Source: a virus
Reading direction: 5' to 3' (one strand)
DNA: 32,674 bases
IMG/VR virus record: IMGVR_UViG_3300042466_000518
Span: 1 to 32,674 of that record
Within the stretch, counting starts at the first letter, position 1. Each line of letters begins with the position of its first letter. The translations under genes were made by a program, and so were the position numbers. Of the stretch, positions 3,152-21,069 are shown piece by piece. Below the pieces are notes generated by a model. That model searched no databases, was not told the origin of the DNA, and saw nothing but the letters and a program-made list of their open reading frames with translations.

Positions 3152-6100
3152 TTACGGGAGAACCGGGTTCCAGCCCGGTGTTTGGGTATCGTTTACATCT
3201 GTCCAGCCAGATGTCTGCGTGTTGTTGACATTTTGCCAGTTTGTTGTCTGGCTGTCATCTACTGCCAACCATGTTGTTGTCTGAACATTGTTTATATCAC
3301 CCCAGTTAGCCACTTGGTCATCGTTAACATCAATCCAAAGGAACCCGCCAATTAGGCTGTCTGCGATTGTTGCTGACTCTAGTACCGGCGCGTTGTAAAC
3401 ACTTCCGGGTGGGCTGACCTGATCCAGCATCTGGGCAACTGCCAGAACCACAGGGTTATAGATTGAGCCGGGAGGCGACACTTCGTCTGTGATGTAGGCC
3501 GACTCAACTGTCCGTGCCGCAAAGGCAGCCAAGGCCGATGCCGCATCCGTAATGGTCGCAGTTTCAGTAATCTGGGCGTAGGGGATAAAGGCGGCTTGGA
3601 CTGTCTCGGTTCCTGTGGCTGTCTCGTTTAAACTGACTGGGAATGTTGCTTTTGCCAGCACAGCGTCAAGCAGGGTAGCCAGCTCTACAATTGGAGCGCT
3701 GTATGTAGAACCCGGAGCATTGACTGCGTCTTGGGCTGTAGCAAGTTCTTGCAGGATGCCTTGGAAAATAGCCTTGGCCGCTACGGTGTCTGTAGTGGAT
3801 GCTGTCTCTGAGATTGCGGCAGCCAAAGCTCTTAAAGCGCTAACTTGATCGGCACCTGTGGCCAACTCGGTAATAACACCCACCGTTGTTAGGTATGCCT
3901 GAACAATATCTTGAACGGCGCTGGACTCAATGATGCTAGAGCGGAACGTGGCTCTTGCACTGGATGCGTCTATGCCGGTGGCTGTTTCTGCAATGTTTGG
4001 ACGGGTTGTATATTTAGCCGACTCTGTATCTGCGGCTGTAGCCGACTCAGCAATATTGCCGGGAAACACAATACGACCAACATCCGCGTCTGTTCCAGTT
4101 GCTGTTTCAATGACAGACGGGCGCGTGATCAACTGAGTGGTTTCAGCATCGGCTCCTGTCGCAGACTCAGCAATAATTGACTGGGCGGTGAACTGGGCTG
4201 CAACCGAATCTGCTCCAGACGCAGTTTCCAAAACTGCGGAGAAATATGATTTAAACGCAGCAACGACATCGGCAGCGGTAGTAGCCTCTACGATTTGGGC
4301 AACAAACACCGTCAGAGCAACAATGTTATCGGTAGCTGTTGCGGATTCGTTTAGGCTGGGGTTGTACGTACTGCCCGGTGCATTAATTGAATCTGTAGCG
4401 GTTACAGACTCAATGATGTAGGCAAACAGACCCTTAATGGACTCTGACAAATCAGTGATGGTGGCCGCTTCAATAACGGCAGCAAGAAGCGTTGCTCTAG
4501 CTGATGCGGCGTCCGTAATGGTGGCAAGCTCTGCGATCACAGACTGAGCGGTCATTCTTGCACTGTCGGTATCAGCCCCCGTAGCTGTTTCGCTAAGATT
4601 GGAGTTAGCAGTTAATTTGGCGCTGTCAGTATCAGAACCTGTGGCTGTTTCTGCAATCAGAGAAATTGCGTTCAAAATTGCCGACTCTACATCGGAGCCG
4701 GTGGCCGTTTCAGTGATGTTTGCTTTTGGCTGGAACGCTGCAAAGTTGGAGTCAGTTATTGTGGAGGTCTCATCAACCGAACCAACAAACAAAAAGCTGC
4801 CGAAAATTGAGTCCGTGCCAGTGCCTGTTTCGCTGATCGCGCCAAGCAGAGTTACGCTGGCGGTAATGGCATCTGTTCCCGTCCCGGTCTCGGTGATTGT
4901 GACGGCGTAAACCGTTCCGCCTGCGGCAATAAAGTACCAGCCCAACGATCCGCTGTTTGTAGAATTAGCCCCTGCGTACCACTCGTTGAGCAAGTCATAC
5001 GCCCTGACGTTGCTGATGTTCAGGTAATCCACATTAGCTGCCGTACCTGCGCCGCTGAAGATTAAAGTGCCGGGGGATGCTGCGGATGTGCCGCTAACGG
5101 TTAAAACACGGGTTGCTGCGCCTGTTGCTGTCCACGGGCTTGTCAGGGTCTGGGTTGAGGTTCCCAGAGCAATCGTTGTAGCACCCGTTGCGCTGTACGT
5201 GTTGGTGATGTCTTTTAAAATGTTGTTGGCAAAAATGGTCAATGCACCTGCACCGCCTTGGTTGAGCGTAATGCCCGAGTAACTTGCGCCCCCTCCAGAA
5301 AAACCTTTTGCCGATGCACTAACCATGTTTATGGTGGCTGTCCCGGTTACTGTTAAATTGGTGGCAGTATTTGTAGACCAAGCACTGTTGCCCGGACCAG
5401 CAATTAGCCAAGTTCCAGAACCCATTGCAAGAGTTCTTACGTTTGAGTTAACGCTTGTAAAAGTTGAATTTACCCCAGAGCACGAAACGTTGTAATTGTT
5501 TGCGTTAAAAGTTCCGTTAATAAGTTGCAACGCTGGGGTGGTTGCAGCATCTGTTGCCAATGCATCTTGTAGCGTTACCGACCCGCCTAGCGTGTTAATG
5601 AAAAGTTGTTGAGTAAACGTTTTACCCGCGCTTGTAATCGTCTGAGCACCACGCCCAGCAAACGTCATGGTTCCAGTACCCGACAGCGTTGTCCCCGTCC
5701 CGTTAATCCAGTTGCCGTAGATTTGTGGTGCGTTCGTACCCGTTGCCAACGTCAGTGTGTTGGTAGTACGAAGACTCATGTCAATCGTGCCGATGTTGTA
5801 GTTGGCATTAACCGTAGCTGTGGCCCCAGAAACAGGATACGTGGCCGCAGGAAAAATAGCGGTGTCTTGGGCCAACGGAAATTGCGTTGCGTCTGCCGAA
5901 CCGCCAGATGTGGCCGACCAAGAGCCTGAACCCGAGCTACCCCAAACTTGACTGCCAGTTGCCCGAAAATAAACCGTCTTAGCCGCATCAAACGTAATCC
6001 CGCTGTTGCCCTTGGCATCACCAAACCGTGTGCCTGTCAGCGGAGCCGCTGCGCCAGTGATGGCAATGTCCCTGAAGTCAATGTCAGCAGCGCCAGCAGT

Positions 6101-9100
6101 CAGTGTGGTGACGTTCAGTGTTCTTTGTGTGCCAATGGTGTCTGATGCCAAGAACGTGCGGTAGGCCGAAGCTGTTCCAGCGTTCAGGGTCAGTGTGCCG
6201 ATGGTTTGGTCGGCGTTGAATGTGACGGGCGTGATGCCGACAGATGTGCGGCCAGCAAACGACAGGGTGTTGAATGTGTTTGCGCCTTGGATAACAATGC
6301 TCGTGTTTGCGGCGCTTGTGAAACTGACGTTGTAAAAACTTAACCCAGTGCAGGAAATTCCAGCAGTTGTGGCTGTTAAATTTATTTGAGATGCGCCAGC
6401 GGTAAAAGTAAAATTTGTGATGTTTCCAAAACTTAACGAGTTTGATGCTGTGCCACTGCAAGTAATGGTTGATCCATTAAAGTTTATAGACCGAATGTTA
6501 CCGTTATTGGAAAAAATATTACTTGATGTTAAAGTGTAATTACTTGCTGAAGTGCTAAATGTTCCGTATGTAACAATAAATTGTGCAGTTCCGATATTTA
6601 GGGCGCTACCCAACGCCCACGTTGAATCAACACCAATAACCGTACAAGAAGAAGCCAACGTCAAACCGTTGGTCGTAAACGTGTAACTGCTATTACCAGC
6701 CCAGTTCATTGCGCCCGTGTACGTCCGTGTAATTCCCGTAGCAGCAAAACTTACATTGCCGTGAAAAGCAATACCCACCGAGCCAGCAAAAGTCACGTTG
6801 CCAGATGCTGGGCCAGCCATTGTGAACGAGGCGCATCGGGCCAGTGTTACACCAGCGTCAATTGTGGCTGTGTAGGCTGTGGCGTTGGACAGTGAGTTAA
6901 AGATAACCGCATCCAAAGATGTGGGGATGGCTGCTCCACCACCACCACCAGATGTTGTGTCCCACTTGGTTGTGGATGACCAGTTGCCTGTGCCGCCCAC
7001 CCAATACAATGTGCGAGGTGCAGGGGTAGCTGTGAAAACAACGCGAGTGTTGCCCGATACGTTTGTGCTGTTTGCGCCAACGTAAAACTCACCGGGGCTT
7101 GTGGTGGCTATGGTGCAATCACGCACGGACAGGTAGTCAATGCCGCTGTTTGCCGGACCTGCAATATTTAAAATAAAAGCAGATGTTGGATTGTTAGACT
7201 CAATGGTAACTATGTTTCCTACAGTTCCTGTAACCGCCCATTTTCCAATGGTTGTGGTTGTGGCAGACGGAAAAGTAATTGTGTGCGCCACAGTTTTGGT
7301 TGAGGTAATCTCACCAAATGTGTCGCCGTTCGCAATACTCAGCGTTGATGTTCCTGTTGCGCCGCCAATGGTTAGTTTGTTGTAATAAAGACCGCCGCCA
7401 GCAAAAGTTCTTGCGCTTGTTGCTGTGTTAGAAAGAACAATTGTGGAGGTGCTCGCTGTAATAACGGGAATAGCTGCCATGTTCCAGACCGAGCCAGTAC
7501 CAGATAACGTCCAAGTGCCAGAACCCATCTTTAAATTAAACCCAGTACTCTGACAGTTTACAAGCCCTACAGTTACGTTGTAAACGCCCGCATCAAATGT
7601 TCCACCAGCGACGCTGCCAGTGCCAATAGTTAAGGTTCTTGTTGCCCCCAAAGACAGCGCATCAGCAAGCTGAACGTTTCCAAGAGGATGGCTAATCCTT
7701 ACCGGACAGCCAAATTGAACGCCGTTACTGGTAATTATTTGTGTTGCGTTTCTAGAAAATTGAATCTCGCCTGATGAGCTGGATGATGTAACGCCTGTAC
7801 CAAACTTCCAATCTCCGTAAACAGCGAGGGTGTTTGTGCTGGTTGTTAGCGTCATTGCACTGGTACGCAACGAGGCGTCAAAAGTACCGATATTCCATGC
7901 GGCGTTAATCGTGATCGTGCCTGTCACACTGCCTGTGTCATCAAACACCGCAGTGTCTTGAGCCAGTGGAAATTGATTAATGTCAGGCGTTCCACCAGAC
8001 CCCGGAGACCACCCTGTAGAACTCCAGTTCTGCGATCCAGTAAGGTTCCAATACACCGTCTTCGCTGCAGGGAACGTGATGCCCGTGTTACCACCGCAGT
8101 CACCTGCCCGTGTAGGCGATGCGCCTGATGCTGCGCCAGCAAGGTTGATGTCGCGGAAATCGCAGTCAGTGGCAGAAATGGCGTTGACCGTCAGGGTGCG
8201 CGGAGTGCCGATAGTGCCAGATCGCAAGAAAATGCGCCTTACCGCAGATGCGCCAGCACAGGTCAGTGTGCCGTTGATGGTTTGGTTGGAGCCAATAGTA
8301 CAACCCATTAATCCCGCAGATGCTGGTGCTGTAAACGCAAGATTGTTAAATGTGTTTTCGCCAGTAATACTGTGCGTTTGCGAACCCGTATTTGTAAAAG
8401 ATAGGTTATAAAAAGTCAACCCACCACCAGCAAACGCCCCGCCAAGAGTTCCAAAGTTGTGATTTAACTGCGAGGTTCCTGCATTAAAAGCAAGGTTAGT
8501 GGAATTGGCAAATGTAAACGCATTGTTGTTTGAGAAGTTTAAAGTGCTTGCGCCAAGATTAATTGTTCTGACGTTGCTGTTGCTTGATAAAAACGTACCA
8601 CCAGTTACCGCATACCCCGCTGTAGTAAACGTGCCGTTCGTCACCGTCAGCTGTTGTGACCCAATGTTTAACGCATCAGCAAGTTGTACTGTGCCGCCGT
8701 AGGTGTCTATAGTGATGGGGCAAGTAAATGTTTTACCTGCGCTGGTGATGGTTTGGGTTGTGCCGCCGGAAAAGGTAACAGAGTTAGAACCGCTAAAAGT
8801 TACACCAGACCCCGCTACAAAATTTCCATATGCTGTAGTTGTATTGCCAAAACTAAAGGACAATGCCGTTGTACGCAAAGACATATCCAGTGTTGGAATA
8901 TAGTTAATGTTAAAGCCAATTGAAAAGCCTGAGCCCCCACTACCATTGTTTATAATGGCAGTATCTTGCGGCAAAGGGAAATTAACAAGTGAGGGAGTTC
9001 CGCCAGATGACGTTGCCCAAATGTTTTCAGAAAATGAACTCAAAACTAAGTTTGCGTAAACAATCTTAGGTGCATCAAATGTAATGCCCCTGCACTCACC

Positions 9101-10093
9101 GCGATTGCCAATGCGTGTTCCGCTAATAGGGGCTGCTGTGCCACGGACGTACAAGCCACGGAAGTCTGCGTCTGTCAGGCTTGGGGCAGAGTTGACCACC
9201 AGATCAACAGAGATGCCGTAAGTGGCTGATGCAAAGAATACGCGCCTGTTACCTGCTGTGCCTGTGGTGGACAGCGTGCCGTTAATGGTTTGTTGGGCGG
9301 AAAAATTAACTGCGGTTACACTTGCTGAATTTCTAGCGGCTACAGCAATATTATTAAATGTATTTGCGCCGTTTATGGTATGTGTACCTGCCGAAATACT
9401 TGTAAAAATAAAATTGTAATACGTTAACCCTGCGCAATCACATACTGCCCCCGTCGAGGGCGTTGTAAATGTAGACGTGCCAGCATTAAGCGTAATGCTG
9501 GTATTTGTCATGTTGAAAACACCTCCACTTACACCTACAGAAAACGTAATGGTAGAAGCGTTTAAATTTAAGGTTCTTGCTAATACTCCGTTAGAGGTAA
9601 ATGTTCCGCAAGTAATGGAGTAATTTCCAGCAGATGAAGTATCGAACGTCCCTGCTAAGATTGCAAGCGAGGATGATGTAGCCGTTGTTGTTAATGCGCT
9701 TCCAAGCGTCCACCCGCCACCAACGCCGTTAAAAATTATACGGCCCGCAATAGAGGTTCCGTTAGTTGTTACCGTCCTACCAGTGGTGGTAGACGAAAAC
9801 GTAATCACGGCTGAAGAACTCCACACCGTTCCCGCCAGCAGCGTCATGGAGCCGCGAATTTCAAGCGTAGGCGATGCTCCTGTAGCAAACGTCACCGTAC
9901 CTGCTGACACCGTGATGTCCAGACAGGCCAATGCGCCCGTCATGGTGACGGTGTAGGTTCCCGCTTGGTCAAAGAATACGCTATCCGCTACGGTCGGGAC
10001 AGACGCACCACTACCCCCGCCGGAGGTAGCAGACCAGTTTGTAGTGCTGCTTGTGTTCCAAGTACCCGCACCACCAACCCAAAATCTATCCAT
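3152..10093 (-). CDS. Giant 2,313-residue repeat fibre / adhesin
   Basis: This is the longest gene in the window. Three nested repeat zones are visible. (1) Residues 1-~1,720 form about five units of ~345 residues, with heads near residues 1, 344, 680, 1,028 and 1,373. A head reads [FY]WVGGxGxWxSxTxW or TVYxxxTGSQxWS, then PxxxDxAxF and xxLRT, followed by Thr/Ser/Gly-rich beta strands as in beta-helix adhesins. (2) Residues ~1,730-2,250 are about 26 units of 20 residues, consensus IxETATGTDxxxA. (3) The last ~60 residues are five 11-residue units, WxxVNDxQTxx. The ATG at 10093 has GGAG 7 bases upstream, inside the C-terminal codons of the preceding HNH gene (8-base overlap). It is probably a long side or tail fibre or surface adhesin; a depolymerase active site is not visible. 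Confidence 0.85.
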   Translation of the reverse strand: MDRFWVGGAGTWNTSSTTNWSATSGGGSGASVPTVADSVFFDQAGTYTVTMTGALACLDITVSAGTVTFATGASPTLEIRGSMTLLAGTVWSSSAVITFSSTTTGRTVTTNGTSIAGRIIFNGVGGGWTLGSALTTTATSSSLAILAGTFDTSSAGNYSITCGTFTSNGVLARTLNLNASTITFSVGVSGGVFNMTNTSITLNAGTSTFTTPSTGAVCDCAGLTYYNFIFTSISAGTHTINGANTFNNIAVAARNSASVTAVNFSAQQTINGTLSTTGTAGNRRVFFASATYGISVDLVVNSAPSLTDADFRGLYVRGTAAPISGTRIGNRGECRGITFDAPKIVYANLVLSSFSENIWATSSGGTPSLVNFPLPQDTAIINNGSGGSGFSIGFNINYIPTLDMSLRTTALSFSFGNTTTAYGNFVAGSGVTFSGSNSVTFSGGTTQTITSAGKTFTCPITIDTYGGTVQLADALNIGSQQLTVTNGTFTTAGYAVTGGTFLSSNSNVRTINLGASTLNFSNNNAFTFANSTNLAFNAGTSQLNHNFGTLGGAFAGGGLTFYNLSFTNTGSQTHSITGENTFNNLAFTAPASAGLMGCTIGSNQTINGTLTCAGASAVRRIFLRSGTIGTPRTLTVNAISATDCDFRDINLAGAASGASPTRAGDCGGNTGITFPAAKTVYWNLTGSQNWSSTGWSPGSGGTPDINQFPLAQDTAVFDDTGSVTGTITINAAWNIGTFDASLRTSAMTLTTSTNTLAVYGDWKFGTGVTSSSSSGEIQFSRNATQIITSNGVQFGCPVRISHPLGNVQLADALSLGATRTLTIGTGSVAGGTFDAGVYNVTVGLVNCQSTGFNLKMGSGTWTLSGTGSVWNMAAIPVITASTSTIVLSNTATSARTFAGGGLYYNKLTIGGATGTSTLSIANGDTFGEITSTKTVAHTITFPSATTTTIGKWAVTGTVGNIVTIESNNPTSAFILNIAGPANSGIDYLSVRDCTIATTSPGEFYVGANSTNVSGNTRVVFTATPAPRTLYWVGGTGNWSSTTKWDTTSGGGGGAAIPTSLDAVIFNSLSNATAYTATIDAGVTLARCASFTMAGPASGNVTFAGSVGIAFHGNVSFAATGITRTYTGAMNWAGNSSYTFTTNGLTLASSCTVIGVDSTWALGSALNIGTAQFIVTYGTFSTSASNYTLTSSNIFSNNGNIRSINFNGSTITCSGTASNSLSFGNITNFTFTAGASQINLTATTAGISCTGLSFYNVSFTSAANTSIVIQGANTFNTLSFAGRTSVGITPVTFNADQTIGTLTLNAGTASAYRTFLASDTIGTQRTLNVTTLTAGAADIDFRDIAITGAAAPLTGTRFGDAKGNSGITFDAAKTVYFRATGSQVWGSSGSGSWSATSGGSADATQFPLAQDTAIFPAATYPVSGATATVNANYNIGTIDMSLRTTNTLTLATGTNAPQIYGNWINGTGTTLSGTGTMTFAGRGAQTITSAGKTFTQQLFINTLGGSVTLQDALATDAATTPALQLINGTFNANNYNVSCSGVNSTFTSVNSNVRTLAMGSGTWLIAGPGNSAWSTNTATNLTVTGTATINMVSASAKGFSGGGASYSGITLNQGGAGALTIFANNILKDITNTYSATGATTIALGTSTQTLTSPWTATGAATRVLTVSGTSAASPGTLIFSGAGTAANVDYLNISNVRAYDLLNEWYAGANSTNSGSLGWYFIAAGGTVYAVTITETGTGTDAITASVTLLGAISETGTGTDSIFGSFLFVGSVDETSTITDSNFAAFQPKANITETATGSDVESAILNAISLIAETATGSDTDSAKLTANSNLSETATGADTDSARMTAQSVIAELATITDAASARATLLAAVIEAATITDLSESIKGLFAYIIESVTATDSINAPGSTYNPSLNESATATDNIVALTVFVAQIVEATTAADVVAAFKSYFSAVLETASGADSVAAQFTAQSIIAESATGADAETTQLITRPSVIETATGTDADVGRIVFPGNIAESATAADTESAKYTTRPNIAETATGIDASSARATFRSSIIESSAVQDIVQAYLTTVGVITELATGADQVSALRALAAAISETASTTDTVAAKAIFQGILQELATAQDAVNAPGSTYSAPIVELATLLDAVLAKATFPVSLNETATGTETVQAAFIPYAQITETATITDAASALAAFAARTVESAYITDEVSPPGSIYNPVVLAVAQMLDQVSPPGSVYNAPVLESATIADSLIGGFLWIDVNDDQVANWGDINNVQTTTWLAVDDSQTTNWQNVNNTQTSGWTDVNDTQTPGWNPVLP
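3163..3345 (-). repeat. Five 11-residue Trp repeats at the fibre C-terminus
   Basis: Read on the minus strand, the end of the giant fibre repeats W, then about three residues, then V/I, N/D, D/N, x, Q, in exact 11-residue steps: WIDVNDDQVAN, WGDINNVQTTT, WLAVDDSQTTN, WQNVNNTQTSG, WTDVNDTQTPG. The final WNPVLP closes the protein. The period is 33 bp. Confidence 0.85.
3346..4908 (-). repeat. About 26 tandem 20-residue (60-bp) repeats in the giant fibre
   Basis: In translation the unit is [IVL]-x-E-[TS]-A-T-[GIA]-[TA]-D, then about 11 variable residues; examples are NITETATGSD, NLSETATGAD, NIAETATGID and VITELATGAD. I counted 26 units of 19-21 residues. Every few units one carries the linker APGSTYN or PPGSVYN. 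The repeats are diverged at DNA level, so this is an old protein array and not a recent DNA slippage array. Confidence 0.85.
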
Positions 10094-10805
10094 TTTGCGA
10101 CTCCAAATACTTTAAAGCCTTGGGGCCGTGCGTGTCTAACTTTATGTGACAAGGACGGCAAACAGTCCGCCCATTATCCACCGCATAACGCAAATCTGGG
10201 AACGCGCACCAAGGCTTTATGTGATCGGCCTCCACATAGACTCCCCTGACGCCGCAACACTGGCAAGTCCAGTTGTCACGGGTAAATACCGCCGTTCTCC
10301 AGTCTCGGTATGGGTAGCCTTTCATTTCGCGCTTGCGTTGCTCTCTTGCGCCGCCTTGCCACAATGGGTGCTCTGGGCCGTACCGTGCATTTTTGCGGTT
10401 TACTTCCCGCATTTTTGCTTTTGTCTCTGCGCTGTGCCCACGGCTTTCTGGCGGAACCAAATCGGCATGGCCGGGTTTAAACAGACCCTTGTACTCCATG
10501 CCTGCGCGCATACAAGTTTTTGAGCAAAACTTTTTTCGTCCAACTTGGTTGGGTTCAATCCGCATATGTGCATTGCAGTTTTTGCAGTTGATATGCACAC
10601 CTTCGGTTTTGTTCCAAGATGGCTTGCCTGTTTTAACGCCTTTTAAAGGCGAAGGCTTGCCAAGTTTTGCAACCGATGATTTTTGCCCTCGGAGCACATA
10701 AGAGCACTCCTGAGAGCAAGTTGTATGGCGTCCGTGTTTTAGGCGGCTCTCATCAGCGGAATATTCTTTTCCGCAAACAGGACACCCCCTTTGAACAAGC
10801 GCCAT
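10086..10805 (-). CDS. HNH homing endonuclease with two N-terminal zinc ribbons
   Basis: The protein has 239 residues. Two zinc-ribbon-like knuckles come first: C8-x2-C11 with C30-x3-C34, and C74-x2-C77 with C94-x3-C98. A NUMOD3-like DNA-binding stretch follows at about residues 123-141 (GHSAETKAKMREVNRKNA). The C-terminal HNH nuclease holds CQCCG (181-185), the ADHIKPW catalytic motif (193-199, His195), Asn211 in VDNGRTVCRPCH, and the structural C216-x2-C219. It probably acts as a free-standing homing nuclease that cuts phage DNA lacking the gene. GAGGAG lies 5 bases before the ATG at 10805. The gene sits between a 60-residue gene and the giant fibre, and its last codons overlap the fibre start. 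A second endonuclease-type gene lies two genes upstream. Confidence 0.9.
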   Translation of the reverse strand: MALVQRGCPVCGKEYSADESRLKHGRHTTCSQECSYVLRGQKSSVAKLGKPSPLKGVKTGKPSWNKTEGVHINCKNCNAHMRIEPNQVGRKKFCSKTCMRAGMEYKGLFKPGHADLVPPESRGHSAETKAKMREVNRKNARYGPEHPLWQGGAREQRKREMKGYPYRDWRTAVFTRDNWTCQCCGVRGVYVEADHIKPWCAFPDLRYAVDNGRTVCRPCHIKLDTHGPKALKYLESQNG

Positions 10806-10807
10806 GC

Positions 10808-10990
10808 TTACTCCTCAGTTGGAGGAGTTTCTTCAGCGGGTGGTGCGTTTACGATGGCAAGCCAATTGTCCAGACGTTGCTGTTTCATGGCTTGAATCTC
10901 GTCTTCCGTCATGCCGTGATCGTCAGGCAGGTGAAGGGCGTCCCGAAAGACGCCGTGCGGGGTATCGAATTCAAAGTCAATTTTGATCAT
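10808..10990 (-). CDS. Small acidic conserved protein, unknown function
   Basis: This 60-residue protein reads MIKIDFEFDTPHGVFRDALH and then LPDDHG-MTEDEIQAMKQQRLDNWLAIV, with a Pro/Glu-rich tail. The DEIQ-x-MKQQRLDNW segment is a predicted helix. I recognise the general pattern from small genes placed among fibre genes of aquatic phages, where it has no assigned role. Its start overlaps the upstream stop as ATGA, and its stop lies within the ribosome site of the HNH gene. It may be the native gene that the two endonuclease genes have invaded on either side, possibly a fibre-assembly helper like other tiny genes next to fibre genes. That role is inferred only from location. Confidence 0.7.
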   Translation of the reverse strand: MIKIDFEFDTPHGVFRDALHLPDDHGMTEDEIQAMKQQRLDNWLAIVNAPPAEETPPTEE

Positions 10991-11541
10991 TGGACATCCT
11001 TAAAAGTTTTGCCGTGGATGATGTTGAGCACCGTTTTCTTGCTTACGCCAAGTTTAGCCGCCAATTGACTCGAAGTCATCATTGGGTAGTTTTCTTTGAC
11101 GTATCTCGCATCATCTGCGGTCAGTTTTGAATTTGGGCGCTCAGCAATTGGCGTAGTAACCGCCTGCTCCTCGGTCATCCCAGATTTAATTCTGTAGATG
11201 ATGTTGCTGGGGTTGCAGCCAATTTCCTTGGCCCACTGAGCCATCGTTTGAGTTTTGCCGTTTGCAGTGATCCAGCGGTTGTTGCGCTTGTTGTTGGCCT
11301 GCTCATCACAACTTGCCCAACGACAGTTCTCAGGGGAGTACGGGCCGTCATTGTTGATGCGATCAAGGGTTGCATTTTCTGGACGCTCCCCAAGATCGCT
11401 CAAAAAGTTTTTAAACCCGCCCTTTCCTTGCCAGCGCTCACAAACAAAAATGCCTCGACCGCCGTAGTCTTTGTACGACTTCTGGTTTTGGTTGTAGCAG
11501 CGGTTAAACATTCCTCTGTACGCACGGTAAATATTTGCCAT
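10987..11541 (-). CDS. HNH/AP2-type homing endonuclease with C-terminal helix-turn-helix
   Basis: The protein has 184 residues. Residues 6-80 match the phage endonuclease pattern YRAYRGMFNRCYN, KDYGGRGIFVCERW, then TLDRINNDGPYSPENCRWA. The DRINNDGPYSPENCRW block carries the Asp/Asn/His-type catalytic core in this family. Residues ~97-130 (TMAQWAKEIGCNPSNIIYRI) and ~140-180 (DARYVKENYP, then SQLAAKLGVSKKTVLNIIHG) are two helix-turn-helix DNA-binding units like those attached to homing nucleases. GGGAG lies upstream of the ATG at 11541. The gene is separated from the structural gene at 11581-12156 by a 39-base gap and overlaps the 60-residue gene by 4 bases. It is a mobile intronless endonuclease gene; its cutting site is unknown. 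Confidence 0.8.
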   Translation of the reverse strand: MANIYRAYRGMFNRCYNQNQKSYKDYGGRGIFVCERWQGKGGFKNFLSDLGERPENATLDRINNDGPYSPENCRWASCDEQANNKRNNRWITANGKTQTMAQWAKEIGCNPSNIIYRIKSGMTEEQAVTTPIAERPNSKLTADDARYVKENYPMMTSSQLAAKLGVSKKTVLNIIHGKTFKDVQ

Positions 11542-12165: not shown

Positions 12166-12582
12166 TTAATTTGAAGAGCGAATTAACGCGGTTGTTGCCG
12201 TATTAGATGGCATGGTTACGAGGAAGGAGCTGGATGTTTTATCTGAGCCAAAGTCCAACACCGCCACCGATCTGTTTGCCTTAGTAACATTGTAGATCAA
12301 AGCGCACCGCGCTGTCACTGCCGCACCAAAAGCTGCATTGTTAAAGTTCACGTAGGCGGTGTAGCCATCCGAATTAATGGTCACGCCAGTCAACGCAATC
12401 CCACCTGCCACATAGCCACCACCCGTCACCTCATTGGATGTCGTGTAAACAGTGGTTGCAGCGTTTAAATCAGCATTGGCCGTGTACAGAGCAATCTTGA
12501 ACGTATCTGTCGTAAAGTCATGCACGGCCTGATACAGCTCCTTTTTGAAGCTGGTGGTTTGCGTTTGGACAATAGAACTCAT
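12166..12582 (-). CDS. Small beta-rich virion protein, unknown position
   Basis: The protein has 138 residues. It opens with a helix (SFKKELYQAVHDFTTDTFKI) that continues into ALYTANADLNAATTVYTTSN, then EVTGGGYVAGGIALTG and VTINSDGYTAYVNFNNAAFG. The pattern of a short helix followed by a strand-rich domain with YTT-x-NEV-x-GGGYVAGG recurs in small phage virion proteins of unassigned place. The start overlaps the stop of the adaptor gene (12579) by 4 bases. It probably belongs to the connector/tail assembly, given its neighbours. No enzyme motif or membrane segment was seen. Confidence 0.7.
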   Translation of the reverse strand: MSSIVQTQTTSFKKELYQAVHDFTTDTFKIALYTANADLNAATTVYTTSNEVTGGGYVAGGIALTGVTINSDGYTAYVNFNNAAFGAAVTARCALIYNVTKANRSVAVLDFGSDKTSSSFLVTMPSNTATTALIRSSN

Positions 12583-13229
12583 GACACCGCCACTCGTACT
12601 TGTCCATCACGATAAGCATCCATACGCTGTTTGCCATCACCCAAGTTCTTGAGCAGAGCAATTGCCTGCACATAGCGATCTTGATACAACTTAACCATGT
12701 CTGCCTCACCCTTCATGTAGGTGACTGCCTCGCACATCGTTCCATACAACAGCGCAGAATCAAAGTTATCACCAAGCCAAGTCTGGCTAGCAGTCACAAT
12801 GGATTCTGGGTAGTAGTAAAAATGCAACTCCACACCGTAGTTGGTGTTGGGTGTAGGGCCAAGGATAAACGACAACTCTTTGGAATCAGATGTTGACGGG
12901 CCAAAGATGGCGTAGTGCTTTGGCAGACCCGTTGCAGATGAGCTTGGATAAGCTTCCCTGATGAAGTTCACATCTTTGTTGAGCAAATAAACATAGTCGC
13001 CGTTGGTGTCAATCACTGCCAAAGAATATGTAGACAGAAAATCGCCGGGAGCGGATAAATATTTATTGTTTGCTGACAAAGTACCCGTCATGTTTCTACG
13101 CAAATTGGCGATCTGAACAGTGTTGTAAATACGCTGCTCTGCCTGCCGAATGAACGTGTTCATATCCGCTGTGGGAAACGTGTTCTCACAGTAATCTGAA
13201 ACCATCGTGACGAGTTCGTTGTACGTCAT
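12579..13229 (-). CDS. Head-to-tail adaptor protein (SU10-type adaptor-like)
   Basis: The protein has 216 residues. The N-terminus MTYNELVTMVSDYCENTFPT with ADMNTFIRQAEQRIYNTVQI, the middle LSAPGDFLSTYSLAV, and the late helix SALLYGTMCEAVTYMKGEAD with MVKLYQDRYVQAIALLKNLG match the adaptor family of SU10/T7-like podoviruses. In those phages twelve copies bind under the portal and take the tail nozzle. The helical bundle with an inserted beta domain fits that family. It starts at the ATG that overlaps the stop of the 88-residue gene. The separation from the portal by many small genes is unusual but it lies in the same transcription direction. The subfamily assignment is from memory and untested. 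Confidence 0.75.
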   Translation of the reverse strand: MTYNELVTMVSDYCENTFPTADMNTFIRQAEQRIYNTVQIANLRRNMTGTLSANNKYLSAPGDFLSTYSLAVIDTNGDYVYLLNKDVNFIREAYPSSSATGLPKHYAIFGPSTSDSKELSFILGPTPNTNYGVELHFYYYPESIVTASQTWLGDNFDSALLYGTMCEAVTYMKGEADMVKLYQDRYVQAIALLKNLGDGKQRMDAYRDGQVRVAVS

Positions 13230-13492
13230 GCCATCGGGCCTCTGGCCATAACGCCTTTGGTAGCTGCGCCTGTACCGCGAATTTTGATACCAGTTGTTTT
13301 GGTGTCAGGTCTGTTTTTCGCGTTGTTGTAGTTGCCAAGACTCATGCGCATTGTATCTGTGCTGCCAATCTCAGACTCTTTGCCGGGATTGGTAGAAGCT
13401 TTAACAACCTTGCCAGTCATTGTGTGTGGAGTGGCATAGACCTTGGCGTCGCCAACTTCTTTACCCATTAATTTCTTGCTGAATGTTGCCAT
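13226..13492 (-). CDS. Small basic protein, unknown function
   Basis: The protein has 88 residues, rich in Lys, Gly, Thr and Met, with no predicted membrane segment. It begins MATFSKKLMGKEVGDAKVYA and ends in a glycine/alanine-rich tail (GTGAATKGVMARGPMA). It lies between another tiny basic gene and the adaptor gene, overlapping the latter by 4 bases (ATGA). GAGG is 6 bases before the start. Small basic, flexible proteins at this place could be packaged in the virion or help connector assembly; that is inferred from position only. It lacks the ADGIA motif of its neighbours. Confidence 0.65.
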   Translation of the reverse strand: MATFSKKLMGKEVGDAKVYATPHTMTGKVVKASTNPGKESEIGSTDTMRMSLGNYNNAKNRPDTKTTGIKIRGTGAATKGVMARGPMA

Positions 13493-13494
13493 GA

Positions 13495-13683
13495 TTAGCC
13501 TCGCTTTTGTGCTGCAATCTTAGCCAAACCACGGCCCATTGCTTTCATGTTGGCGTTGGTTTTACCGCCGCCCTTGCCTTTACCGCCAGACATTTCGCCC
13601 ACTGTAGGGCCGCTGTCACCAAGGTTTTTACCCTTGGTTTTGCCTTGCTTGGCGATGCCATCTGCTGATCGTGTGAATGCCAT
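13495..13683 (-). CDS. Tiny basic protein carrying an ADGIA-GKTKG motif (copy 1)
   Basis: The protein has 62 residues and is Gly/Lys-rich. The motif stands at the very start: MAFTRSADGIAKQGKTKGKN. A glycine/lysine stretch (MSGGKGKGGGKTN) and a helical end (MGRGLAKIAAQKRG) follow. The same motif, R-[SA]-ADGIA-x-x-GKT-[KR]-[GA]-[KR], ends three more small proteins at 15241-15516, 15520-15861 and 15861-16148. A perfect AAGGAG lies before the ATG at 13683. No known domain is recognised. The high charge suggests binding of DNA or of an acidic virion surface. Confidence 0.7.
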   Translation of the reverse strand: MAFTRSADGIAKQGKTKGKNLGDSGPTVGEMSGGKGKGGGKTNANMKAMGRGLAKIAAQKRG

Positions 13684-13694
13684 GTTTAAACTCC

Positions 13695-14078
13695 TTAAGA
13701 TATAGAGACTGTACCTACAAATGTGGTGGCTATCAAGTAGTTTGGTGTGATTCCAGCATCATTTAAACTAGCCCCACCCACCGGCTGCCACCCCCACTGG
13801 ATGTCCCGTGAACCACCTGAAAGATTGCCGTTAGCGTTTACACCAGATGTCACATAGGTTGTATCTCTGCGTGGGTTACGCAATGCCTGCGGATCATCTA
13901 CTGGGAACGTGCCGAGCATTAACTGCGGCTGGTCTGGATCCCAGCATTCTGGGCACACCAATAACTGATACTGTCGTTGCTTAATGACCTCGGTCTTAAG
14001 CTTCTTTAATTTGTACTGCTGTCCACAGCGATCACACTCAGCAATCGCAATCTTGCCGGATGCGAATCGGTTACCCAT
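13695..14078 (-). CDS. Zinc-ribbon virion or connector protein, unknown function
   Basis: The protein has 127 residues. The N-terminal half reads MGNRFASGKIAIAECDRCGQ and carries a four-cysteine ribbon, C15-x2-C18 and C42-x2-C45 (VCPECWDPDQPQLMLG). It continues FPVDDPQALRNPRRDT and a glycine/asparagine-rich segment, then a beta-rich end (WGWQPVGGASLNDAGITPNY). This arrangement recurs in aquatic phage structural clusters without assigned function. The start overlaps the upstream stop as TAATG. Its place between the two connector/nozzle candidates makes a structural joint more likely than a regulator, though a zinc ribbon could also bind nucleic acid. Confidence 0.7.
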   Translation of the reverse strand: MGNRFASGKIAIAECDRCGQQYKLKKLKTEVIKQRQYQLLVCPECWDPDQPQLMLGTFPVDDPQALRNPRRDTTYVTSGVNANGNLSGGSRDIQWGWQPVGGASLNDAGITPNYLIATTFVGTVSIS

Positions 14079-15007
14079 TACATACTCCCACCGATAAACA
14101 TCTGACGGGGTACAAATCTAACAGCGGCCTTTTCACGGTCTTCGCCAGCGGCAGTCTCAAATGTTTCGTCGTAGATCTGCTTGAGCATCTGTATGCGCGG
14201 CATTAATTCTGGCACTTTGACGGCAATGTGATACGCCAAGCCTGCGGTCAAAGCGGGTAGGAAACGGAAGTTCATATCCGACGTCTCAATACCGGAACCA
14301 GCATCCTGAACGCGGCGAAGTCTCCAGTACACAAACTGATATGGCGTAGAGTTGTCTGGAGTTGGCCAGACAGTTACAGCAGGAAGCTGGGGCACATACA
14401 CGGCAGTGCTAATCAAATGAGAGGCTGCGGTTGTGTTGTTCTGGCCACGGAACACGCCACCAAGGGTATTGCCTGTGACGTATGTGTAGTAAATATCTTC
14501 GTTGTCTAAACGAATAAATCCAGCTCCGGCTAGCCCAACCACCGAGTTAAGCGTGATCGTGGTGTCTGTGGAATTGATGGCTGACGCCAAAACAGAAGAC
14601 GTTGGGTTAACTTCGCCAGAGAGTCTTTGAATCCAGACTTGAATTGGGCGAGCTTGCTGGAGTTTGTTGGGGATGGTTGCATAAGTAGAAACACTAATAC
14701 GTGTGATGGTCAAATCAGCCTGTGTAGACGATGTATTCTGACCAGTACGGATAACCTGCTCCAACAAATCAATGGTATCTGTAGGTAATGCGTATGTAGA
14801 CAGGCCGGGAGTCAGGTTAATAACGCCCTGCTCCATGGTCCACATGTTGATACCTTTGTTCTGCCACTCAATGGTCATCAGGTTCATTGATCTGCGTGCT
14901 GTACGCAAGTCATAGCCTGAACGCATTTCACGACCGGCTCGCTCCCACGCTTCCTCGGCAATCTCCGTGAAGTCCATATTAAAGAGGGTGGATCCGGTAG
15001 TGGTCAT
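14078..15007 (-). CDS. Virion structural protein, candidate tail nozzle / connector
   Basis: The protein has 309 residues. Residues ~12-60 form helices (DFTEIAEEAWERAGREMRSG, then DLRTARRSMNLMTIEWQNKG). Next comes WTMEQGVINLTPGLSTYALP with TDTIDLLEQVIR, a pattern known from tail-tubular or connector proteins of podo-like phages. Residues ~133-210 hold an inserted beta domain (SSVLASAINSTDTTITLNSV, then GFIRLDNEDIYYTYVTGNTL) of the kind added to many phage virion proteins. The C-terminal helices (ALTAGLAYHIAVKVPELMPR, QIYDETFETAAGEDREKAAV) return to the core fold. Its stop overlaps the zinc-ribbon gene. I cannot tell adaptor from nozzle by eye. Confidence 0.7.
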   Translation of the reverse strand: MTTTGSTLFNMDFTEIAEEAWERAGREMRSGYDLRTARRSMNLMTIEWQNKGINMWTMEQGVINLTPGLSTYALPTDTIDLLEQVIRTGQNTSSTQADLTITRISVSTYATIPNKLQQARPIQVWIQRLSGEVNPTSSVLASAINSTDTTITLNSVVGLAGAGFIRLDNEDIYYTYVTGNTLGGVFRGQNNTTAASHLISTAVYVPQLPAVTVWPTPDNSTPYQFVYWRLRRVQDAGSGIETSDMNFRFLPALTAGLAYHIAVKVPELMPRIQMLKQIYDETFETAAGEDREKAAVRFVPRQMFIGGSM

Positions 15008-15237
15008 TTTTTAGCCGTCTTTGCAGAGTCAATAAAAGCCTGAGCAGTGGGCGCACCCTTCTGGCCGGGCTTACGCATCTTTTCGCCGCGAGCACGTTTA
15101 GCATGGATGTTGGCATACAAACCAACCTTACCGCCTTCAGCGTACTGCGTGAAGTCAGTATCATCCCGGCGTGCTTTTCTCACGCCTTTGGGCATTTTAC
15201 TTGGGGATATGGCCCCCATGCCACGGCTAGCTAACAT
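15004..15237 (-). CDS. Tiny basic protein with YAEGG motif
   Basis: The protein has 77 residues and is strongly basic. It reads MLASRGMGAISPSKMPKGVR and then TDFTQYAEGGKVGLYANIHA-KRARGEKMRKPGQKG, ending in a helix (AQAFIDSAKTAKK). The YAEGG element also opens the neighbour at 15241-15516 (MKKYAEGGIY) and appears as FAKGG in the gene at 15520-15861. These tiny genes therefore share modules in different combinations. It overlaps the next gene's start by 4 bases. No function is known. It is co-transcribed with virion genes. Confidence 0.65.
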   Translation of the reverse strand: MLASRGMGAISPSKMPKGVRKARRDDTDFTQYAEGGKVGLYANIHAKRARGEKMRKPGQKGAPTAQAFIDSAKTAKK

Positions 15238-15240
15238 GAT

Positions 15241-15516
15241 TTAGCACATCTTTCCGCGTGTTTTACCACGCTGGGCAATACCATCAGCTGCTCGTGTGTA
15301 GCCACCAGAAGCCATTTTCTTTTTACGGGGAGCAGAGCCGCCATCGACGTCTTGCGGGACAGGCATTCCTTCACGGAACACGGTGTCTTTTGGGACAGAC
15401 TTTTTAGGGGGCTGAGCCTTGGGCGCTGGCTTCTTAGAAGGGGGAGCACTTTCAGGATTCATGGGCGGCTGGCCCATTTCAGCAGTATAAATGCCGCCTT
15501 CAGCATATTTTTTCAT
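15241..15516 (-). CDS. Tiny Pro/Lys-rich protein ending in an ADGIA motif (copy 2)
   Basis: The protein has 91 residues. It opens MKKYAEGGIYTAEMGQPPMN, has a proline/lysine linker (PPSKKPAPKAQPPKKSVPKD), and ends GGYTRAADGIAQRGKTRGKM-C. The terminal motif is shared with three sister genes, and the last residue is cysteine, as in the sister at 15520-15861. The linker looks disordered. It starts at 15516, 3 bases after the upstream stop. Function is unknown; it could be a virion-packaged basic peptide or an assembly factor. Confidence 0.65.
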   Translation of the reverse strand: MKKYAEGGIYTAEMGQPPMNPESAPPSKKPAPKAQPPKKSVPKDTVFREGMPVPQDVDGGSAPRKKKMASGGYTRAADGIAQRGKTRGKMC

Positions 15517-15519
15517 GAC

Positions 15520-15861
15520 TCAGCACTTTCCGCCGTAGTTCATTTTGATTTGCTTGGCTTTGGTTTTGCCTTTAGAAGCAATGCCATCAGCAGAGCGTGT
15601 AAACCCACCAGAGGCAAGCTTGGTCATAGCTGAGCCTTTGTGCAAACGGCCTTCGTGTTTGTTCACGGCCTTCTGCATCATCTTTTTGTCCATCTTTACG
15701 TCTTCGTGTTTCATATCGCCACCTTTTGCAAATTTACGGCCTTTATCAGCCATGGAAAAATCTTTGCCCACAGACTGTGGGACGCCTGCTTTCTTGGCAA
15801 ACGATGGGTTGTGAGCCACCGCTTCCATGAAATTGTGTTGCTTTTTAGAGCTACTTGGCAT
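15520..15861 (-). CDS. Small basic protein with SKKQ-FM and ADGIA motifs (copy 3)
   Basis: The protein has 113 residues. The N-terminus is MPSSSKKQHNFMEAVAHNPS followed by FAKKAGVPQSVGKDFSMADK, a block I recognise from many small phage-encoded proteins of unknown role. A lysine/methionine-rich middle (MKHEDVKMDKKMMQKAVNKH) follows, and the end is SGGFTRSADGIASKGKTKAK-QIKMNYGGKC. It combines one widespread phage module with the local ADGIA module. The start at 15861 overlaps the upstream stop as TAATG. It is probably soluble and nucleic-acid- or virion-binding by charge, but that is inference. Confidence 0.7.
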   Translation of the reverse strand: MPSSSKKQHNFMEAVAHNPSFAKKAGVPQSVGKDFSMADKGRKFAKGGDMKHEDVKMDKKMMQKAVNKHEGRLHKGSAMTKLASGGFTRSADGIASKGKTKAKQIKMNYGGKC

Positions 15862-16148
15862 TACAAGTACCGACCTTTAGTTTTACCGCGCTGGGCAATG
15901 CCGTCAGCACGCTTAGAAGCAGGGCTAACTTTGCCGCCTTTATTAAAACTTTTACTCCAACGAACGCCATAGCCTTTGCCAACTTTAGCTGGCTCTAGCT
16001 TTCCGCCGCCAAGAGGAACGCTCATGGCTTCACGAAGTCTACTCCCCAATGATGAAGATTCCCCGCCAAAATTTGGAGAACCTTCGTCTCTGGATGGTGG
16101 GGGTGGTGGGGGTGGTGGGGGCGCAGGGTTACCATTTGACATAATCAT
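15861..16148 (-). CDS. Polyproline small protein ending in an ADGIA motif (copy 4)
   Basis: The protein has up to 95 residues. Two starts are possible: ATG at 16148 (3 bases after AAGGA, too close) and ATG at 16142 (MSNGNPAP, 9 bases after it), which I prefer. A run of nine prolines follows (APPPPPPPPPSRDEG), encoded by a C-rich short repeat. Next comes a helix (SSLGSRLREAMSVPLGGG), and the end SKRADGIAQRGKTKGRYL matches three sisters. The proline run may vary between relatives through slippage. Function is unknown. Confidence 0.65.
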   Translation of the reverse strand: MIMSNGNPAPPPPPPPPPSRDEGSPNFGGESSSLGSRLREAMSVPLGGGKLEPAKVGKGYGVRWSKSFNKGGKVSPASKRADGIAQRGKTKGRYL

Positions 16149-16397
16149 TTATCCTTTTTGGCGAATAAGTTGGTCAATTTTTTCTTCCAGCCTGTTAAAG
16201 CGCTGGTCAATGTGATCAGTAATCCGCTCAACTTCTGCTTGAGTAACGTTATCACGTGCGACCTCCTCGCGAGTTTTGTTCAAGAGAATGCTGATGCGAG
16301 CAAGTTCTCTGAACTTTTCGTTCATTATGTAGCCAATCAAGCCGACAAGAATTGTTAAGACTGTTGACCATACTGTATTGAGATCTAGCATTTCCAT
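16149..16397 (-). CDS. Membrane-anchored coiled-coil protein, possible lysis or envelope factor
   Basis: The protein has 82 residues. A single N-terminal transmembrane segment (VWSTVLTILVGLIGYIMNEK, residues ~9-26) is followed by a long amphipathic charged helix (RISILLNKTREEVARDNVTQ-AEVERITDHIDQRFNRLEEKIDQLI) with heptad-like spacing. The layout matches small phage membrane proteins sometimes called holin-like or spanin-like, but no family-specific motif confirms it. The start overlaps the DUF6321-like gene by 13 bases. It is the only membrane protein in this part of the virion cluster. An endolysin gene is not seen nearby, so the lysis role stays open. Confidence 0.7.
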   Translation of the reverse strand: MEMLDLNTVWSTVLTILVGLIGYIMNEKFRELARISILLNKTREEVARDNVTQAEVERITDHIDQRFNRLEEKIDQLIRQKG

Positions 16398-16630
16398 GCT
16401 CTAAGCGATTTGTTGATGCGTGAGTCTGGATCTTTGGCGGTTTTGGCGGAGGTTAGCTTCTTCTTCATGCCTTCCATCCTCGCACAGAATGAATCTTTGC
16501 GGGAGCCGCCTTCCGGCTGGGGAGGTTTCAAGTTCATGCCTTGCGCTTTCGCGGAGGCGCGACCCTTGGCGTTCAAACCACCTTTGGGGTTCTTGCCCTC
16601 TTTCCTCTGCCATGCTGGACTTTTAGCCAT
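16385..16630 (-). CDS. DUF6321-like small basic protein
   Basis: The protein has 81 residues. It begins MAKSPAWQRKEGKNPKGGLN followed by AKGRASAKAQG, the block I recognise as DUF6321 from aquatic phages. The second half carries SFCARMEGMKKKLT and ends SRINKSLRAWKC, another motif common in phage small proteins. The Lys/Arg/Gly content and small size put it with the ADGIA-motif proteins downstream, although it lacks that motif. It overlaps both neighbours (8 bases upstream, 13 downstream), so it depends on coupled translation. The biochemical role is unknown. Confidence 0.75.
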   Translation of the reverse strand: MAKSPAWQRKEGKNPKGGLNAKGRASAKAQGMNLKPPQPEGGSRKDSFCARMEGMKKKLTSAKTAKDPDSRINKSLRAWKC

Positions 16631-16956: not shown

Positions 16957-17385
16957 TTAAGCAGAAGCTGGGAAAGAAGAGCCGTCTGAGTTGCGTACTG
17001 TGTAAGTTACGCTCAACACCCCAGCAGAGGCTGCGGTTGCGGTGAAACTTAACTGAGCATCGGTAGCACCTACGTTAGCCATAGTGCCTACGTTGGCTGC
17101 GGTCACAACCAGATTGTTTAAACCAGCTGCTGTAGAAACAGTACCAATGATGGTTCCGCCAACAGTCACGTTAGGTGTGCCAGCAGCGCCGGTAGTCATG
17201 TAGGCTTGCACGTTGCTGATGATAGAACCTGCTGGAATCCAGCAAGTCACAGCGGAGCCAGCGACCAGAGTGATTTGTTGAGTAACTTGAGTTGCGCCGG
17301 TGTTGCGAACTGTGCCAGCAGTAGTGCCGGTTGTGTCTTTGACAGTGCCAAGCAGCCAAGGGCCGAGGTGAGTTGCGAATCCCAT
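16957..17385 (-). CDS. Beta-rich virion protein, likely capsid-associated
   Basis: The protein has 142 residues. MGFATHLGPWLLGTVKDTTG then TTAGTVRNTGATQVTQQITL is a start I recognise from small structural proteins encoded right behind the capsid gene in aquatic phages. The rest is rich in Thr, Ala, Gly and Val, with strand-turn patterns (TCWIPAGSIISNVQAYMTTG, VLSVTYTVRNSDGSS). AAGGA is 7 bases before the ATG at 17385. It is separated from the capsid gene by the strongest terminator in the late module and by an inverted-repeat leader, so its level may be set independently of the capsid protein. A decoration or cement role is plausible but unproven. Confidence 0.7.
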   Translation of the reverse strand: MGFATHLGPWLLGTVKDTTGTTAGTVRNTGATQVTQQITLVAGSAVTCWIPAGSIISNVQAYMTTGAAGTPNVTVGGTIIGTVSTAAGLNNLVVTAANVGTMANVGATDAQLSFTATAASAGVLSVTYTVRNSDGSSFPASA

Positions 17386-17516: not shown

Positions 17517-17536
17517 AATATTTCCGAAGAAATATT
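17517..17536 (-). other. UUCG hairpin overlapping the capsid stop codon
   Basis: A perfect 8-bp stem (AATATTTC / GAAATATT) closes a TTCG loop on the minus strand, directly before the intrinsic terminator. Its 5' arm includes two bases of the capsid stop codon. Very stable loops of this kind often protect the 3' end of abundant mRNA from exonucleases. Confidence 0.7.
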
Positions 17537-18443
17537 AGGCTCCGGGTGAACCGAAGATACCCAGTGGGTCAGACACGCCGAAGCTGTAACGCTCACGGGC
17601 TTTGTAACGAACGTTGCCGGTATCAAAATCCCCGTCCATTCCAGTGCTCATAGGGGTGCGCACGAAGTGCTTCAAGCCGTTAGGCACGTCAGTCAACAAG
17701 AACCAAGCATTGGGGTCTGTCAAGAAGTGGTTAACGGTGTAACCTTCAGGAATAGAACCATTGTTTTTCAATGCGTTGATGTCGTTGTCAGTTGTACCAA
17801 CACGCAATTCAGTTTCGAGCAAGCGAGTTGCAACGAACATGTTTGCTGGAGGAACGACCAACTTCTTAGGCTTGGCAGCGATGAGCAAACCGCGCTCGTC
17901 TGTCCAAGCGGCGATTTGAATAACTGCGTTTTCCAACGAAGTTTCGTTCAAGTCAGCTGCTGTGGCAGGACGGTTGCTGTTTGTACCACCGGAAACCAAG
18001 GGGTGTGCTGTAGAGCACAACACCTGACCGTCGCCGTATGTAGGGCCGCCAGCAAAAGCGTTGTTCAGGACGTAAGCGGCCTTAACTTGCTTTGTGTAAG
18101 CCATACCACGGGCCAGAGCCTTGGTATAACGTGAAGACAGGCTGTCATACAAGTTATCTTCCACAGCTTCCTCTGTGATGGAGAAGCCCATCGCAATGGT
18201 TTCGTGGGTGTAACGTGCAGTCCATGCTTCTTGTGCATTGTCATAAGCGATGGCAGAGCCTTCATTCTTGACAGGTGCAGCAGAGAAGCCAGAAAGCTTT
18301 GTCTCTTCTTCGAAACTACGCTCAGATGACTCTGTTTCGTAGATTTCTTTGTGCTCTTCGCCGTATTTAGCGTACTCAAGACCAAACAATGCGTTCAGAC
18401 CGGGGAGCAACTCTTTCAGTAGTTGTGCGCGTGAAATAGCCAT
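17535..18443 (-). CDS. Major capsid protein, HK97-fold (Mu gpT-like)
   Basis: The protein has 302 residues. Recognisable parts run in order: a helical start MAISRAQLLKELLPGLNALF; an extended acidic arm (EIYETESSERSFEEETKLSG); GSAIAYDNAQEAWTARYTHE and AMGFSITEEAVEDNLYDSLS; DGQVLCSTAHPLVSGG; RGLLIAAKPKKLVVPPAN; and the P/A-domain end DPNAWFLLTDVPNGLKHFVR with RYKARERYSFGVSDPLGIFG. This matches gpT-type major head subunits (about 300 residues), which form the T-number shell around the scaffold. GGAG is 9 bases before the ATG. It follows the decoration-like gene closely (13 bases) and is followed by two hairpins and a terminator, as expected for the most abundant virion mRNA. Confidence 0.88.
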   Translation of the reverse strand: MAISRAQLLKELLPGLNALFGLEYAKYGEEHKEIYETESSERSFEEETKLSGFSAAPVKNEGSAIAYDNAQEAWTARYTHETIAMGFSITEEAVEDNLYDSLSSRYTKALARGMAYTKQVKAAYVLNNAFAGGPTYGDGQVLCSTAHPLVSGGTNSNRPATAADLNETSLENAVIQIAAWTDERGLLIAAKPKKLVVPPANMFVATRLLETELRVGTTDNDINALKNNGSIPEGYTVNHFLTDPNAWFLLTDVPNGLKHFVRTPMSTGMDGDFDTGNVRYKARERYSFGVSDPLGIFGSPGA

Positions 18444-20879: not shown

Positions 20880-21069
20880 CTTCATATTCCTTAGTTTTTC
20901 GCACGAGGTCAGCAAGTTCATACTGCGCGGTTTGCAGACCTCGGATAGTCCCGCACAGTTCTTTGTAGTGCTCGTGGGATTTAGCTCCACCAGCACTGAC
21001 AACTTCAACCAACTGCTTGACGTGTTCCTCAAGCTTACCGTTCAACACTTCAAGCATATTGGCCATCAT
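20872..21069 (-). CDS. Small coiled-coil protein next to the co-chaperonin
   Basis: The protein has 65 residues, almost wholly helical with heptad spacing: MMANMLEVLNGKLEEHVKQL, SHEHYKELCGTIRGLQTAQY, ELADLVRKTKEYEDE. Its start overlaps the portal stop by 4 bases, and its end overlaps the co-chaperonin start by 8 bases, so it is translated in step with both. The same small gene in the same place is something I associate with aquatic phage head modules, but its function is unknown. It may bridge scaffold and portal or regulate assembly; that is inference. Confidence 0.7.
   Translation of the reverse strand: MMANMLEVLNGKLEEHVKQLVEVVSAGGAKSHEHYKELCGTIRGLQTAQYELADLVRKTKEYEDE

Follow-up and report, generated by a model that had tools for sequence, protein, structure and literature searches.

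In T-even phages such as T4, the capsid targeting sequence (CTS) of the internal proteins is a short conserved address carried by highly diverse and otherwise unrelated phage proteins (PMC3012670). It is an N-terminal propeptide of 10–20 residues, removed by the prohead protease (PMC5694885). The cargo-loading peptides (CLPs) of encapsulins are also short, usually C-terminal and sometimes N-terminal, and are carried by unrelated cargo proteins encoded beside the gene for an HK97-fold shell (PMC7355545). Here we describe a peptide element, tag 1, encoded in the virion operon of the IMG/VR virus record IMGVR_UViG_3300042466_000518, an uncultivated tailed-phage contig analysed over its whole length of 32,674 bases (hereafter the window). 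Four small open reading frames (ORFs) of this operon, all on the minus strand, share the motif ADGIAxxGKT[KR]. This motif forms the core of a basic tag of about 20–28 residues that is disordered and stands mostly at the C terminus. Our best reading, made by analogy, is that the tag works like the T4 CTS or the encapsulin CLP and belongs to neither.

Tag 1 resembles the T4 CTS in that variable cargo proteins with nothing else in common carry the same address, in both cases among phage structural components. By its description, however, the CTS is N-terminal, whereas tag 1 is basic and mostly C-terminal, standing at the very end of 252 of the 361 complete ORFs that carry it and near the N terminus of 12. 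No protease was recognised in ten proteins of the virion operon; the remaining genome was not searched for one. In placement, the encapsulin CLP is by analogy the closest parallel, being a short terminal peptide on unrelated proteins encoded beside a capsid gene. It differs in that the tag 1 peptide is basic and that the neighbouring shell gene, which shares its operon with the portal and terminase genes, codes for a phage capsid (Mu gpT / Phage_capsid_4) and not for an encapsulin. The motif strings were not found in print in the literature searched, and looking more generally for C-terminal motifs of this kind brought up nothing either; as far as that literature goes, the tag is undescribed.

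A terminal tag on unrelated small proteins

A scan of 2.9 million viral contigs (IMG/VR) with the motif pattern gave at least 120 loci; of 536 relatives from a second scan, guided by protein sequence, 80 were kept. Together they provide 197 loci with 389 distinct motif instances, including the 361 in complete ORFs. The consensus is GGxV-SASxR-ADG[IC]A-x-[RK]GKT[KR]G[RK], followed by two hydrophobic or Cys residues and the C terminus. In the 252 terminal copies (type A), the stop lies exactly four residues after GKT[KR]; in 85 other ORFs (type B), the end comes 10–20 residues after it, often as ...GGKC. One protein carries a tandem double tag (L094). Because the search pattern partly fixed D, G, G, K and T, their constancy is not counted as evidence. 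Outside the pattern, S-A-S (71–87%) and R (90%) are also kept, the closing pair is hydrophobic or Cys, and a GG pair precedes the tag end by about 23 residues in slightly over half of the cases.

In the window, the motif DNA pattern matches exactly four places and the reversed control none. The ADG codons are at 13657–13665, 15280–15288, 15583–15591 and 15900–15908. The original prediction, made from the letters of the window, had described four small proteins with this common motif; they are indeed present, one copy lying near the N terminus (13495–13683) and three near the C terminus. Its wording R[SA]ADGIA fits three copies, the fourth being KRADGIA, and its placing of three copies at the protein ends is exact for 15241–15516 and 15861–16148, but in 15520–15861 about 12 residues follow the motif. 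A second shuffled module, YAEGG/FAKGG, is not supported in that form: YAEGG occurs in 15004–15237 and at the start of 15241–15516, and FAKGG in 15520–15861, and these look like a variable GG-rich stretch that often precedes the tag rather than a clean module. The label 'very short basic proteins' also proved too narrow. Tagged proteins reach 394 amino acids (aa), and their bodies are near neutral: the mean charge per residue is +0.05 in the bodies and +0.24 in the tag, whose 28 residues together carry about +7.

The wider sample supports the reading of the motif as a separate module: it occurs in many IMG/VR relatives, where virion-operon proteins with many different, unrelated bodies carry it. 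In random pairs of tagged proteins, the last 20 residues are 70% identical, while the bodies are 24% identical, compared with 22% after shuffling. Clustering sorts the bodies into 136 groups when BLAST is used and into 83 with phmmer and single linkage. Proteins of the DUF6321 family usually end in RAW[KN]C, and in four loci (L203, L217, L224 and L230) the tag is placed straight after this native end. Orthologues of the 62-aa gene 13495–13683 keep the rest of the protein, and the N-terminal motif is absent in about half of them. Eleven orthologues of 15861–16148 were aligned; within this family, both tag and body are conserved. AlphaFold2 predicts a shared tag-bearing body as helical with moderate confidence and its tag as unstructured, with a predicted local distance difference test score (pLDDT) below 50 for residues 74–100. 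The predicted structure of 15861–16148 is mostly unsure, the tag having pLDDT below 50 at residues 75–84 and 92–95.

The tagged genes occupy a defined slot. The gene order common to 20 regions is terminase, portal, four genes, capsid, cement, DUF6321, a holin-like gene, the variable tag slot, a phrog_16028-type gene, adaptor and a Zn-ribbon gene; the tags always lie between the capsid and adaptor genes. In these 20 records, 62 of the 69 slot ORFs outside conserved families have the tag core in their last 45 residues. As each record was chosen for at least one tag, subtracting one per record leaves 42 of 49. The pattern DGxxxxGKT would be expected by chance about 0.03 times in 69 slot proteins of that composition.

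Silent sites between tags are nearly randomised, so selection acts on the protein. Four-fold sites are 0.38 identical between genomes and 0.43 within a genome (0.33 expected), compared with 0.75–0.79 at codon positions 1 and 2, and 95% DNA identity is reached by one of 117 within-genome tag pairs. The same values exclude recent copying of the tags. The four window copies also differ from each other at synonymous third bases. Shine–Dalgarno-like sites precede 70% of tagged ORFs and 18% of control ATGs, and the stop of a tagged ORF is usually overlapped by the ATG of the next gene. These silent changes, ribosome-binding sites and overlaps support translation of the frames, on which the original prediction depended.

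Distribution and alternative tails

Each of 25 long records has one to six motif matches, which share a strand and in most cases fall inside a stretch of some 4 kb (reversed control, none); a single match on the opposite strand (G015) is probably due to chance. Among the pattern-scan matches listed, 117 of 120 loci hold other genes of this operon, the other three being shorter than 1.7 kb, and capsid identity to the window is 77–92%. A search of 84,980 prokaryote genomes found only three matching contigs of metagenome-assembled genomes (MAGs). When checked, two of them carry virion genes of this group and the third looks chimeric: in this Patulibacter MAG contig (L204, positions 1–260), a short phage piece with the tag is in frame with a bacterial membrane protein, probably through chimeric assembly. 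Since the loci share the operon and only three MAG contigs match, the tag belongs to one phage clade not seen integrated in sequenced genomes. The carriers are a large, mostly uncultured, water-dwelling group, common in IMG/VR, in which the tagged proteins are almost unannotated.

With the short tag as query, tblastn against annotated phages yielded nothing beyond weak matches of the kind expected by chance; it was the capsid gene that led to MinM2, an annotated carrier. The capsids of MinM2, Pag-Yong1 and Pra-JY27 are 74% identical to that of the window and the capsid of DSL-LC04, a metagenome-assembled phage (PMC10611076), is 66% identical. Further capsid relatives are the pelagiphages HTVC027P and HTVC023P, CRP-901/902, Caulobacter RW and Alcaligenes QDWS535. 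Three GenBank records (OQ594354, OL906435 and PP438419), each of 65,014 bases and with equal capsid and portal match scores, are assigned to three different cyanobacterial hosts; these host labels may be unreliable.

In MinM2, a single tag is present, in the diverged form GRDGCAKRGRTKGRFI. DSL-LC04 has no tag 1; its orthologue of a tag-1 cargo protein ends in KGGLVTSKGQGRVIRSKKTRIC, an instance of a second tail, tag 2 (RGQG[KR]V[MI]RxK[KQ]T[RK]I[CIY]). A pattern scan found tag 2 at 60 IMG/VR loci, and all 61 instances, that of DSL-LC04 included, stop one residue past the core, on five body clusters. The capsids of these phages are mostly 62–67% identical to that of the window. One tag-2 body family matches tag-1 bodies, with up to 64% identity and E down to 1e-30, and in this family orthologous bodies carry tag 1 or tag 2 at the same place, their end. 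By the strict patterns, the two tags exclude each other: tag 2 is absent from 25 tag-1 records, and tag 1 from 22 tag-2 records. Tag 3 (RGCGxVMxNRRKKTK) is present at no fewer than 120 IMG/VR loci (L293–L412). The phages that carry it share this virion operon, and the tagged bodies belong mostly to a single family of small proteins with a KVYPSAYAN-like sequence.

Tags 2 and 3 resemble tag 1 as C-terminal tails of the same virion operon and differ from it in sequence. Profile comparison (hhalign) gives a probability of 94% for tag 2 with tag 3, 0.6% for tag 1 with tag 2 and 2.4% for tag 1 with tag 3, and so detects no common descent of tags 1 and 2. In the capsid tree, a branch with support 98/99 has all tag-1 rows but one (72 of 73) on the same side. 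Tag type tracks this tree with one exception, the near-identical contigs L155 and L159 from two metagenomes.

Proposed role and competing explanations

Protein-level conservation, portability, C-terminal placement, operon position and clade-specific tails can be read directly from the sequences. From these properties, we judge the chances to be about even that tag 1 is an address by which small proteins of various kinds are recruited to a common partner in virion assembly, most likely within the head. From a single slot of its virion operon, the phage would produce two to six small proteins that have the tag in common but are otherwise unrelated. A single partner in particle assembly (the capsid interior, scaffold, portal or adaptor) would read it, and varied cargo would be delivered to the same place and be present in the virion, with the head interior as its most probable destination. 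The cargo bodies would be free to change while the tag stays. The common partner and the docking or packaging tag put forward in the original prediction fit a portable module on unrelated bodies. A broader proposal is possible but rather doubtful: tag 1 and tag 2/3 would be the versions, in different clades, of a C-terminal code for loading, by which any tailed protein would be carried by the particle and which would change between clades on the same bodies. Such a code would be for these viruses what cargo loading is for encapsulins, and distinct from the T4 route.

If the address reading is correct, the system would add a C-terminal route of loading to that known from T4. The small proteins borne by particles of uncultured phages could then be listed from sequence alone, the alternative tails would form a natural experiment on the joint change of address tags and their readers, and the tag would be a short peptide to try for packaging proteins into phage heads.

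Several findings weigh against the address reading. Motif copies also occur at N-terminal and internal places, so a free C terminus is not always required. PHROG and Pfam scans of 141 tagged proteins recognised two domains only. The capsid relatives HTVC027P, HTVC023P and CRP-902 are without tag 1. Lastly, the capsid (92%), cement (87%) and scaffold-like (50%) proteins of L155 and L159 are nearest to the tag-2 clade, and yet tag 1 stands at the end of two of their slot proteins; L159 also has a diverged tag-2-like tail, at the end of a portal-side protein. From this combination it follows that the capsid, cement and scaffold genes do not dictate the tag, which counts against a simple capsid-matched code: either the tag reader lies elsewhere, or one site accepts both tails. 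These two contigs should be useful for finding the reader.

The tag could instead be a nucleic-acid-binding tail, rich in K, R and G, that holds the proteins on the phage DNA, so that they travel with the genome or take part in its condensation. We consider this unlikely. The strong positive charge of the tag beside near-neutral bodies would suit it, and several neighbouring small proteins are also basic, but the constraint exceeds what charge would need: the stop does not shift, and conservation extends to D, G, A and the hydrophobic pair at the end, even if D, G, G, K and T are in part fixed by the search. A clade-specific change of sequence on the same body would also not be expected of simple charge binding.

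Less probable still is a host- or membrane-directed signal acting after injection or during infection, for instance by docking to a host factor. The presence of tag 1 amid tag-2-clade capsid genes in L155 and L159 is what one would expect if the reader were not a phage head protein. Against this, all tags are in the virion operon and none is among the early genes of the 25 long records, bar the one probable chance match, and only two of the 83 body clusters have a strongly hydrophobic segment.

It is quite improbable that the tail is a maturation or turnover signal, cut off or marking the protein for a protease. The fixed distance to the stop and the closing hydrophobic or Cys pair, which would favour it, resemble C-terminal recognition signals in general, but the ten virion-operon proteins scanned include no recognised protease and the motif is also found N-terminally and in tandem.

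A DNA- or RNA-level element, with the shared 3' end kept as a ribosome-binding site or as a recombination anchor for swapping bodies, is very improbable: although the Gly three residues from the tag end is GGA or GGG in 66% of cases, compared with 7% at other tag glycines, and makes a Shine–Dalgarno site for the next gene (e.g. 15864–15880), this overlap is limited to the last few tag codons, and the near-random four-fold sites beside conserved positions 1 and 2, with so few near-identical pairs, contradict such a role as the sole or main cause.

The operon and other features of the window

The features of the window are listed in table 1. The proteins 13495–13683, 15241–15516 and 15861–16148 have no PHROG and no significant Pfam match. 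Residues 1–43 of tagged protein 2 are 74% identical to phiKZ 165.1, and the same phrog_16759 module opens the 847-aa protein CBB_322 of phage CBB, annotated as structural; this weakly suggests a virion location for 15520–15861. The DUF6321 (PF19846) and phrog_16759 modules either stand by themselves or form an end of a larger phage protein, and in some cases they are linked to the tag. Like the tag, they are small conserved modules of this operon, but their sequence families are separate from it.

Table 1. Coordinates of the tagged genes, their tags and the surrounding virion genes in the window.
Feature	Position	Strand	Remarks
Terminase large subunit	23607–25112	−	virion operon
Portal	21066–23597	−	virion operon
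Major capsid protein, Mu gpT / Phage_capsid_4 family	17535–18443	−	
Cement-like protein	16957–17385	−	homologue so annotated in DSL-LC04
DUF6321 protein ending RAWKC, upstream slot boundary	16385–16630	−	PF19846 E 1e-19
Tagged protein 1, 95 aa, Pro-rich start, type A tag at exact C terminus	15861–16148	−	
Type A tag of 15861–16148, last 28 aa, FNKGGKVSPASKRADGIAQRGKTKGRYL	15864–15947	−	
Tagged protein 2, 113 aa, N-terminal phrog_16759 module and type B tag (motif then ...KMNYGGKC)	15520–15861	−	
phrog_16759-type module, residues 1–43 of tagged protein 2	15733–15861	−	phrog_16759 E 4e-19
Motif core RSADGIASKGKTK of tagged protein 2	15559–15597	−	
Tagged protein 3, 91 aa, starts MKKYAEGG, type A tag at exact C terminus	15241–15516	−	9-member body cluster
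Type A tag of 15241–15516, last 28 aa, ends RAADGIAQRGKTRGKMC	15244–15327	−	
Untagged small protein, phrog_16028 type, downstream of slot, YAEGG element	15004–15237	−	
SU10-adaptor-like protein, downstream slot boundary	14078–15007	−	PF24175 E 1e-6; synteny
62-aa protein, motif near N terminus (MAFTRSADGIAKQGKTKGKNLG)	13495–13683	−	
N-terminal motif RSADGIAKQGKTK of 13495–13683	13633–13671	−	
Second SU10-adaptor-like protein	12579–13229	−	virion operon

The gene 13226–13492, which adjoins 13495–13683, and its orthologues in L216–L232 have a strongly conserved C-terminal tail of their own, [KR][IVM]RG[TA]GAATKGxMxRGPMA. Elsewhere in the window, the ORF 3152–10093 codes for 2313 aa, is apparently repetitive (TITSAGKTFT recurs) and is probably fibre-like, and the plus-strand ORFs 26688–27299 and 27522–28115 look like duplicates of each other (common ...QLR.GWALRWQELNPA...). 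Within the virion operon, the ORFs 10086–10805 and 10987–11541, judged by eye, have the look of HNH/homing endonucleases.

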